Program-made: the position numbers and the translations under genes
Part shown: positions 52,662 to 54,863 of the stretch, in pieces
Numbering within the stretch: position 1 is the first letter of the stretch
Layout of the letters: each line of letters opens with the position of its first letter
Assembly: GCF_009807005.1 (NCBI RefSeq)
Contig: NZ_WUBR01000002.1
Location: 248,001 to 312,000, forward strand
DNA: 64,000 nt
Direction of reading: 5' to 3'
Source: Aurantiacibacter rhizosphaerae
GTDB taxonomy: Bacteria; Pseudomonadota; Alphaproteobacteria; Sphingomonadales; Sphingomonadaceae
The notes under the pieces: generated by a model
The model's input: the letters and a program-made list of their open reading frames with translations, nothing else
The model's database searches: none
Told to the model about the DNA's origin: nothing

Positions 52662-52751
52662 GGACAGGTGGCAGAGCGGTTGAATGCACTGGTCTTGAAA
52701 ACCAGCAAGGGTGCAAGCCCTTCGTGGGTTCGAATCCCACCCTGTCCGCCA
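52662..52751 (+). tRNA. tRNA-Ser (anticodon UGA)
   Basis: 90 nt including an encoded CCA (52749-52751). Acceptor GGACAGG (52662-52668) pairs with CCTGTCC (52741-52747), discriminator G. Anticodon stem CTGGT/ACCAG with loop CTTGAAA puts TGA at 52696-52698. A long variable arm (AAGGGTGCAAGCCCTT) and the GTTCGAATC T-loop confirm a class II serine tRNA. Reads UCN, mainly UCA. Confidence 0.97.
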
Positions 52752-52779: not shown

Positions 52780-52791
52780 TCACCTAGGTGA
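52780..52791. promoter_or_regulatory. 12-bp perfect palindrome before the secreted-protein gene
   Basis: TCACCTAGGTGA at 52780-52791, 84 bp before the next start. A small hairpin (TGCCGG/CCGGCA, 52833-52849) lies between. Possible operator; no regulator is suggested by context. Confidence 0.3.
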
Positions 52792-52874: not shown

Positions 52875-53753
52875 ATGAACCGCAAGCTTTGCGCTGCCCT
52901 TGCCGCCACCGCTGCTGCCGCCACAATCGCCACTGCCGCGCCCGCACAGGCCCAGGGCGCCTGCGATCGCGAAATGCTGCAAGGCATCGCCAATGATTGG
53001 GTTTCCGCGCTCGAGAAGGGCACGATGATGACCATGAACCTAGGCGAATGGGTCGAATATAACGAGAATTTCCAGCGCGGTTCGCTTGGCGGGTTCCTTA
53101 CCCCGGCACGGGAAGTGGACTGGCACCTTGCCCTGCTGGACACCACGACATGCCAGGTGTTTGTCGAGGCCGTTATGCTGGACGAGGAAAATCCCATCGT
53201 CAGCGCAACGCAGATCAGCAACGGCTTCTTCGGTGTTGGGCCCTTCGATAATATCGTGACCGACAAGGGTGACTGGCTGTTCGATCCGCAAGCCACCTAT
53301 GAATATGCCCGGCGCGAGGACTGGGGCGATATTCCGGAAGGTGAGCATGCCACGCGCGAGGAACTGATCGCCGCTGCCGATGCTTATCTGGACCTGTTCA
53401 ACGATCCCGGCGTCGAAGTGCCATGGGGTGAGCCTTGTGCGCGGCTGGAAGGCGGCGTCTACACCGGTCGTGGAGAGCCGACCGACACCTGCAACGTGGG
53501 CGTTCCCGAAGGTGTTGAGCTGAAGAACCGCCGCTACGTGGTCGACGAAGTGAAAGGCGCGGTGAACGTCATTCTGGAATTCGGTGACAACGCCTTGCCC
53601 GACAGCCACACGTTCCGCATGGAAGATGGCAAACTGCGTTACATTCACACCGTAACTGCCTGTGAAACCGAGAATTGCGGCTTCAAGCCCTTTGCCGAAA
53701 TGCTGGCCGAGAACCCCGATATGCAGCCGCCGTACGCGCCTCTTGACGAGTAG
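52875..53753 (+). CDS. Secreted protein of a family shared with fungi (DUF8021-like)
   Basis: 292 residues with a signal peptide ending PAQAQ (about 1-24). The mature part opens CDREMLQGIANDWVSALEKG and looks like two NTF2/SnoaL-type halves. Blocks such as IVTDKGDWLFD, VPWGEPCARLEGGVYTGRG, NRRYVVDEVKGAVNV, LPDSHTFR and IRYIHTV-like LRYIHTV match what I remember of secreted fungal proteins of the DUF8021 group. Six or more conserved Cys suggest disulfides. No function is known to me. Start at ATG 52875, upstream frame lacks the signal. Confidence 0.8.
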   Translation: MNRKLCAALAATAAAATIATAAPAQAQGACDREMLQGIANDWVSALEKGTMMTMNLGEWVEYNENFQRGSLGGFLTPAREVDWHLALLDTTTCQVFVEAVMLDEENPIVSATQISNGFFGVGPFDNIVTDKGDWLFDPQATYEYARREDWGDIPEGEHATREELIAAADAYLDLFNDPGVEVPWGEPCARLEGGVYTGRGEPTDTCNVGVPEGVELKNRRYVVDEVKGAVNVILEFGDNALPDSHTFRMEDGKLRYIHTVTACETENCGFKPFAEMLAENPDMQPPYAPLDE

Positions 53754-53831: not shown

Positions 53832-54863
53832 ATGACATTTCAGACCCTGCGCCGCGCCGGCGCCTTCGCTGCTGCACTGATGCTGAGCTCCTCTCCCGCC
53901 ACCGCGCAAGGGGAATCCTTCAGCAGCTATCTCGATACCGTGGCCGCCCATGCCCGCGCAGAAGGGGTTAGCCAGCGCACCATCGATCGCGTGTTTTCCG
54001 GCCTTACACCCAATGACAGGGTGCTGGCGCTGGACCGGGACAATGTCTCCTCTGGCGGCTCCACCACCAGCACGGGATTTCCCTCCATGGCGGGCTATCT
54101 CAACCGTCATAACACGTCGGCCCGCATCAGCGGCGGCGTGCGCAAGCTTGCCGAAACACGCTCTATCGGTGCTGATATTGAGCGCAAATATGGTGTGCCC
54201 GCCGAAATAGTTATCGCGATCTGGGGGCATGAAACCGCCTATGGCGCGGTGATGGGCAGCTTCGATCTGCCGCGTTCGCTCGCCACGCTGGCGTGGGATG
54301 GCCGCCGCCGCACGCTGTTCGAACGTGAATTAATCGATGTGCTCAAGATGGTGGATCAGGGCGTGTCCCGCTCTCAGCTGGTGGGCAGCTGGGCAGGGGC
54401 GTTTGGCAACGGACAGTTCCTGCCAAGCGTCTATCTGCGCCTTGCCGTGGATGGCGATGGCGATGGTGACCGCGATATCTGGAACTCCGATGTCGACACC
54501 ATGCATTCCATTGCGAATTATTTTCGCGATGCCGGATGGCGCACGGGAGAACCCTGGGCCGTGCGCGCCTACGTGCCCAACTCGGCAGACCGATCCGGCA
54601 TTGAAAATCGCGTGACTTCGCCGGTTTGCCCGCGTGTTCACGAACGTCACAGCCGCTGGATGACCGTGCGCGAATGGCGAGAACGGGGCATTACGCCGCG
54701 CGCGCCCATAGGTGATGACGTGATGGCATCGCTGTTTGAACCCGATGGCCCGGCAGCACCCGGCTATCTCTTAACCCAGAATTATAGGGTTATACTCGAA
54801 TATAACTGCTCGAATTACTACGCGATGAGTGTGGGATTGCTTGCAGATGAGATTAGTCGATAA
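53832..54863 (+). CDS. Lytic murein transglycosylase, MltB family
   Basis: 343 residues, signal peptide ending PATAQG. Catalytic Glu134 in IWGHETAYG, then SWAGAFGNGQFLPSVYL (the MltB A-x-G-x-x-Q-F-x-P motif) and DGDGDGDRDIWNS, typical of MltB/SltB1 enzymes. Cleaves the glycan strand of peptidoglycan giving 1,6-anhydro ends. No lipobox, so soluble periplasmic. Overlaps the following lipoprotein gene by 17 bp. Confidence 0.92.
   Translation: MTFQTLRRAGAFAAALMLSSSPATAQGESFSSYLDTVAAHARAEGVSQRTIDRVFSGLTPNDRVLALDRDNVSSGGSTTSTGFPSMAGYLNRHNTSARISGGVRKLAETRSIGADIERKYGVPAEIVIAIWGHETAYGAVMGSFDLPRSLATLAWDGRRRTLFERELIDVLKMVDQGVSRSQLVGSWAGAFGNGQFLPSVYLRLAVDGDGDGDRDIWNSDVDTMHSIANYFRDAGWRTGEPWAVRAYVPNSADRSGIENRVTSPVCPRVHERHSRWMTVREWRERGITPRAPIGDDVMASLFEPDGPAAPGYLLTQNYRVILEYNCSNYYAMSVGLLADEISR

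Follow-up and report, generated by a model that had tools for sequence, protein, structure and literature searches.

A conserved, apparently exported protein with two predicted NTF2-like domains in Aurantiacibacter rhizosphaerae, from a family linked to lignin-aromatic catabolism by gene context

The gene and its conserved residues

The window, which is the whole stretch of DNA analysed here, comprises 64,000 nucleotides of the Aurantiacibacter rhizosphaerae genome. The gene under study lies at 52875–53753 of the window, between a tRNA-Ser and a gene for an MltB-type lytic transglycosylase. The features of the locus are listed below. Residue conservation is given as counts over 63 aligned rows of family groups I/II and 25 rows of group III, the rows not being mutually independent.

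52662..52751, + strand: tRNA-Ser (TGA), upstream landmark
52875..53753, + strand: coding sequence of the apparently exported twin-NTF2 protein, ATG start at 52875, TAG end at 53753, 292 residues plus stop, with orthologues
52875..52955, + strand: probable signal peptide, residues 1–27, with an AQA/Q-type end, read by eye; pLDDT below 50 for residues 1–27; A26 and Q27 in 63/63 rows of groups I/II
52962..53267, + strand: first NTF2-like half, residues 30–131, from the predicted structure
53064..53069, + strand: E64-N65, conserved acidic site of the first half; E64 in 57/63 (I/II) and 25/25 (III), N65 in 60/63 and 25/25
53139..53141, + strand: D89, conserved acid of the first half; 63/63 (I/II) and 21/25 (III)
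53325..53684, + strand: second NTF2-like half, residues 151–270, from the predicted structure
53436..53453, + strand: C188-A-R190-L-E192-G193, conserved site of the second half; C188 in 63/63 and 24/25, R190 in 63/63 and 23/25, E192 in 59/63 and 23/25
53490..53492, + strand: C206, possible disulfide partner of C188, the pairing being inferred; 61/63 (I/II) and 22/25 (III)
53544..53546, + strand: D224, conserved acid of the second half; 63/63 (I/II) and 25/25 (III)
53832..54863, + strand: downstream gene for an MltB-type lytic transglycosylase; TIGR02283 270.8 bits (cut-off 248.45), PF13406 302.5 bits

An alternative in-frame GTG at 52788 would give a protein of 321 residues. The ATG at 52875 is preferred because it yields a clean export signal, with a basic start, an alanine-rich stretch and an AQA/Q site, as judged by eye and not by a signal-peptide program. 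The protein is thus apparently exported. Five sequence blocks that an earlier note had named, GDWLFD (residues 132–137), VPWGEPCARLEGG (residues 182–194), NRRYVVDEV (residues 218–226), PDSHTFR (residues 242–248) and YIHTV (residues 256–260), are all present in the 292-residue protein. Columns conserved in the bacterial family fall within these blocks, with counts over the 63 rows of groups I/II of 62 for D133, 61 for G193 and 63 for each of F136, C188, R190, R219, D224, R248 and H258.

Twenty-one other genomes of the genus contain orthologues with 61–89% amino acid sequence identity, and 23 of the 61 genomes of relatives searched have a match, this genome counted. No internal stop was counted in 20 of the 21 genus matches; the remaining one, in genome G021, carries a single TGA. 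Given these orthologues, the location of the blocks on conserved columns and the exported-type N-terminus, 52875–53753 is a real gene and no chance open reading frame. Its codon use is ordinary, with a GC3 of 0.71 and an adaptation index of 0.70 compared with means of 0.72 and 0.67 for the open reading frames of the window, a rough background picked mechanically as the longest frames with third-position G+C of at least 0.6 and including some false antisense frames. A scan for promoters and terminators gave nothing above chance.

The residues conserved in groups I/II as well as in group III are E64, N65 and D89 in the first half of the protein, and C188, R190, E192, C206, R219, D224 and G228 in the second. 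The protein carries the resulting family signature, which consists of E-N and D in the first half and R-x-E and D in the second. By their conservation these residues look like one acidic pocket per domain plus a disulfide. Some loci carry tandem copies of the gene, and the partner copies at L011:4016–4699 and in L069 (a 249-residue open reading frame) lack the segment that contains C188, R190, E192 and C206 while the rest is kept.

Predicted structure

A full-length AlphaFold2 model was built from 12 sequences, and the first half was also folded alone. The full-length model (pTM 0.74, mean pLDDT 69.9) displays a helix followed by four strands, an arrangement that occurs twice along the chain. 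The lists of structure matches are dominated by the ketosteroid-isomerase (NTF2-like) fold. The second half aligns with 4mjd, a ketosteroid-isomerase fold, with a Z score of 8.8 and rmsd of 2.8 over 99 residues, and the first half, folded alone, aligns with ketosteroid isomerase 1c7h with a Z score of 9.2 and rmsd of 2.8 over 105 residues. These matches are modest, with Z scores of 8–9.5 for a tool that warns that best Z scores of 7–8 are common. Foldseek returned no match at E ≤ 0.001 for the whole model and two such matches for the first half. Model confidence is lowest at the conserved motifs, residues 62–68 and 186–205.

In each half the predicted models contain the NTF2-like cup, a curved sheet wrapped on helices, and two fused cups of the SnoaL/ketosteroid-isomerase fold are therefore well supported by prediction, as the earlier note had anticipated in proposing two NTF2-like halves. 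Sequence homology between the halves was not found (hhalign probability 11%), so that a duplication would have to be read from the fold alone. The likeness to ketosteroid isomerase and SnoaL lies in the fold predicted for each half; sequence identity in the listed matches is 3–18%, and there is no Pfam SnoaL match. The available text of PMC3924330 states that members of the NTF2-like superfamily share no common sequence motif, and the missing SnoaL-type match is thus no defining test.

The epoxide hydrolase Lsd19 (PDB 3rga and 4rzm; 281 residues), in which two NTF2-like domains are fused in one chain, aligns over residues 28–261 with a Z score of 8.8. It differs from the present protein in that sequence identity is 9%, the rmsd over both domains is 15.0, and Lsd19 is an enzyme of lasalocid biosynthesis.

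Database searches and taxonomic range

Searches of Pfam-A (24736 models) and NCBIfam at E values up to 1 gave no match to the protein, and a Pfam scan of 31 family members returned only names at chance level (best E 0.019), none of them an NTF2-like family. The single protein sequence found no match in the PDB up to an E value of 10, and a PDB search with the family profile gave chance-level matches, with E values of 0.24 and worse. A profile match to N-acetyltransferase 40 was rejected for the same reason (E 0.24). The earlier note's picture of a strongly constrained and uncharacterised protein, apparently an exported one, is supported.

A scan of one genome per species over 84,980 species, using patterns from the single protein and hence finding close relatives only, yielded 9 loci; it alone covered the phyla beyond Pseudomonadota. 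The 9 loci belong to named Erythrobacter-type genera or to metagenome bins labelled Sphingomonadaceae, Erythrobacter, Altererythrobacter, Croceibacterium or Alphaproteobacteria; locus L003 is from Aurantiacibacter odishensis. With profile searches, matches were found in 4 of the 398 genomes sampled across the phylum and in 3 of the 385 sampled across the class, this genome counted in each. In the draw from the family, at E values up to 1e-30, matches were found in 25 of 298 genomes and 8 of 96 genera, again counting this genome. The plasmids, phages and viral contigs searched contained no relative. As far as searched, the protein family is found only in one bacterial family, on the Erythrobacter/Aurantiacibacter side of Sphingomonadaceae.

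Group II members are 37–44% identical to the protein and are located elsewhere in the chromosome. Group III, which contains proteins of single and double length (about 600 residues), is related to groups I/II by profile comparison (probability 99.5%, E 3.6e-22) and was found in 5 of the 398 phylum genomes, which include the present one and all belong to the same bacterial family. In four group III matches (L113, L120, L123 and L124) an internal stop codon was counted. The proteins of about 610 residues at L050:1288–3120 and in L053 contain the two-cup unit twice, and the L050 member, from another genome, directly follows a gene for a PQQ dehydrogenase with a cytochrome c domain.

Inheritance at the mltB site

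In this genome the gene ends 78 bp before mltB, and genes for a SPOR-domain protein and a peptidase S11 come next. A group I/II gene was found in 44 genomes, 23 of the genus and 21 others. In 40 of the 44 (22 of the genus and 18 others) mltB is the next gene after a single copy or a tandem pair, the exceptions being G005 (69% complete), G484, G557 and G584. The carriers at this site span six genus groups, since the 18 non-genus genomes fall into five groups beyond the genus itself. Of the 40 genomes, 38 have a tRNA-Ser upstream, at a distance that is mostly no more than 1.5 kb but reaches 1.7 kb in L005 and 4.2 kb in L004; G006 and G018 have no tRNA-Ser inside the fetched stretch. The neighbourhood is variable, with 1.7 to 4 kb of extra DNA between lpd or tRNA-Ser and the gene in L004, L005 and L008.

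Twelve of the 14 gene-less genomes of the genus were examined, leaving out G024 and G028. In all 12 the tRNA-Ser and the mltB match are separated by 115–319 bp, or in one genome by 719 bp, and no copy of the gene lies in the interval. Distances between the genes track those between the adjoining mltB sequences (Spearman 0.50, Pearson 0.66), a correlation reached in 0 of 2000 permutations over 40 loci; one locus, L064, was dropped for its short mltB, its genome being retained through L083. The mltB synteny, the tRNA-Ser/mltB arrangement of the gene-less genomes and the mltB-tracking distances indicate that the gene was most likely present in the common ancestor of several genera and passed on largely vertically, with repeated loss. 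The suggestion of the earlier note that the gene reached this organism by lateral transfer is unlikely to hold for a recent event, since mltB is next to the gene in 40 of 44 genomes, the distances follow mltB and codon use is ordinary. An ancient transfer, in either direction, is compatible with inheritance at the mltB site.

Gene context of the relatives

The link to aromatic catabolism comes from relatives located outside the mltB site. Among the 41 such group I/II genes, 15 have within 10 kb a gene that matches LigB, the subunit of a ring-opening dioxygenase, at E ≤ 1e-70. The genus contributes 10 of its 15 such genes and the remaining genomes 5 of their 26, compared with a chance expectation of about 1 in 75 each, assuming two LigB genes per 3 Mb. 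The other 26 are not near a LigB gene on the same contig. Two of the 41, G557:C104 and G484:C162, are close to the ends of their contigs and could be mltB-site copies.

The association also holds at the level of whole genomes. In the family draw a strong LigB match (E ≤ 1e-70, a threshold chosen after the first LigB results were seen) is present in 25/25 genomes with a group I/II gene versus 54/273 without one; the LigB and group I/II draws, of 298 genomes each, were taken as the same set since their listed handles agree. The corresponding counts in the genus tree set are 22/22 with the gene and 1/12 without. G005, G024 and G028, for which there was no mltB sequence, were left out of the tree test. 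G005 has a group II gene and a strong LigB but lacks the mltB-site copy, gene and LigB are both absent from G024, and G028 has LigB without the gene. The gene-less genomes of the genus with LigB at 1e-70 are G027 and G028 (70% complete, outside the tree). At Pfam's own LigB cut-off, matches occur in 23/23 genus genomes with a group I/II gene versus 5/14 without.

Shared ancestry inflates these association counts. The supported branches of the tree provide five independent pairs, of which four point the same way, none points the opposite way and one shows no difference (p 0.125). Flagellin, used as a control, exhibits no association (11/22 with the gene versus 6/12 without). A second control, the photosynthetic reaction centre, gives a reversed and weaker association (3/22 versus 7/12, p 0.015), and because it also differs, in the reverse direction, lifestyle confounds the association with LigB.

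L107, the one cluster scanned in detail, contains in order genes for a MarR regulator, an AcsA-type ligase (1000.2 bits, cut-off 724.95), a glutathione transferase, a group III-like protein, the group II protein, a PilZ protein, LigA (the protocatechuate 4,5-dioxygenase alpha subunit; 204.7 bits, cut-off 173) and LigB (the extradiol beta subunit; 479.6 bits, cut-off 317), with a hydroxycinnamoyl-CoA hydratase/lyase gene close by (427.5 bits, cut-off 276). L104, L106 and L109 show a series of gene lengths similar to that of L107, with LigB at that place.

Of the two LigB genes in the present genome, one is at G000:C1, as is LigA, and the other at G000:C2 near a gene for a hydroxycinnamoyl-CoA hydratase/lyase. 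Its group III relative, at G000:C3:322857, is located 2.3 kb from a gene for a lignostilbene dioxygenase of the NOV2 type (NF053780, 858.7 bits, cut-off 650). This island contains an MFS transporter gene beside that of the lignostilbene dioxygenase, together with genes for a flavin oxidase and cytochrome c, a SnoaL_4 protein, a PQQ dehydrogenase and an aldehyde dehydrogenase. This aromatic island, L129:260–18094, also carries a DUF3237 gene and an IclR regulator, and its SnoaL_4 protein matches only two chains in the PDB, Rv3472 and an uncharacterised protein.

Discussion

From the predicted fold, the conserved residues and the gene context of the family, we infer, tentatively, an exported NTF2-like enzyme that would act on lignin-derived aromatics outside the cytoplasm. 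Such a two-cup protein, probably stabilised by a disulfide if C188 pairs with C206, would hold a small hydrophobic aromatic ligand in each cup against a conserved acid pair, the putative pairs being E64/D89 in the first half and E192/D224, with R190, in the second. The reaction may be cofactor-free acid/base chemistry, that is dehydration, hydration, retro-aldol or isomerisation, modelled on the sphingomonad NTF2-family lyase LdpA, which acts on a lignin dimer. Against a lignin enzyme stands the location of the gene and its orthologues, which adjoin cell-wall genes and not catabolic ones. The orthologue at the mltB site, its own neighbours being wall genes, could meanwhile have taken on a broader function.

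The main functional rival to a pocket enzyme is a pure binding protein, a non-catalytic periplasmic or extracellular binder whose two cups would capture an aromatic or hydrophobic ligand for uptake or sensing. According to the portion of PMC4608573 available, NTF2-like proteins with enzymatic activity are typically found inside the cell and the non-enzymatic domains mainly outside it, which speaks against an exported enzyme and favours a binder for a protein that looks exported by eye. However, the acids and arginines conserved in both halves (63 and 25 rows) look more like an active site, and a pure binder would often vary at such residues; we consider this role rather unlikely. The genomic neighbourhood suggests another one, a cell-envelope protein that works with the neighbouring MltB-type transglycosylase, the SPOR-domain RlpA-like protein and the DacA-like carboxypeptidase. 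The short distance to mltB, the SPOR and peptidase S11 genes that follow and the presence of mltB beside the gene in nearly all carriers agree with such a partnership. Nonetheless, the tRNA-Ser/mltB arrangement is kept without a copy in all 12 gene-less genus genomes, so that the wall genes do not need the gene, and 15 of the 41 relatives elsewhere are near LigB. A role in the envelope thus appears improbable.

The origin of the family is a separate matter, compatible with the lignin-aromatic enzyme preferred here. The named sequence blocks, together with secretion, may be shared with ascomycete proteins grouped as DUF8021, and the family could be a bacterial branch of that fungal one, derived by ancient lateral transfer, in either direction, between Erythrobacter-like bacteria and ascomycetes with a common extracellular role. 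Acquisition in one bacterial lineage would explain why so few of the bacteria searched are carriers (4 of 398 genomes in the phylum draw, 3 of 385 in that of the class), and secretion together with a plant-aromatic ecology would suit both partners. On the other side, the protein has no Pfam-A or NCBIfam match and the 31 members gave chance-level names only, synteny and codon use make a recent event unlikely, and the deeper group III is likewise bacterial, so that the family could have arisen in bacteria without any transfer. The high identity to fungi assumed in the earlier note was not confirmed; the collections searched, of prokaryotes, phages, plasmids and viruses, yielded bacterial homologues only. 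The Pfam library searched, from which the presumed accession of DUF8021 is absent, may lack the corresponding model, and a literature search found neither DUF8021, by name or presumed accession, nor peptide strings of the protein. A branch shared with the fungal family is thus plausible without being the expected outcome. Its combination with the preferred function, a family of exported, cofactor-free NTF2-fold enzymes acting on lignin oligomers in Erythrobacter-like bacteria and, if the fungal likeness holds, in ascomycetes, would amount to an undescribed extracellular plant-aromatic step shared by two kingdoms, and is a speculative and improbable extension. The bacterial proteins provide a way into what may be a family of secreted fungal proteins that lacks characterisation. 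A Cercospora NTF2-like protein that looked relevant was rejected, being a DUF1348 protein placed in the cytosol in the portion of PMC4608573 available.

Lignin-dimer catabolism in sphingomonads is known mainly from cytosolic enzymes, and LdpA and PcfL are single-domain enzymes of the cytosol. The protein described here resembles these formaldehyde lyases in its NTF2 superfamily, in occurring in related bacteria and in the lignin-aromatic setting of some of its relatives. In contrast to them it has two domains and is apparently exported, and the likeness is one of fold class. LdpA and PcfL are not among the structure matches listed, which excludes nothing. The two-domain, apparently exported NTF2-like family described here is linked to lignin aromatics by gene context and apparently unrecognised by Pfam-A and NCBIfam. 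With some members beside ligAB or near a lignostilbene dioxygenase gene, it narrows the search for a periplasmic or extracellular step to a few candidates.

Within the available text of PMC12997858, LdpA and PcfL are described as NTF2-family enzymes of lignin-dimer deformylation in sphingomonads (see also PMC11323797), and strain SYK-6 is reported there to have 62 NTF2-superfamily homologues, with further lignin pathways awaiting characterisation. The NTF2-like repertoire of the present genome is large, with 17 SnoaL_4 matches in 3.4 Mb, including open reading frames of 680 and 727 residues with three matches each.
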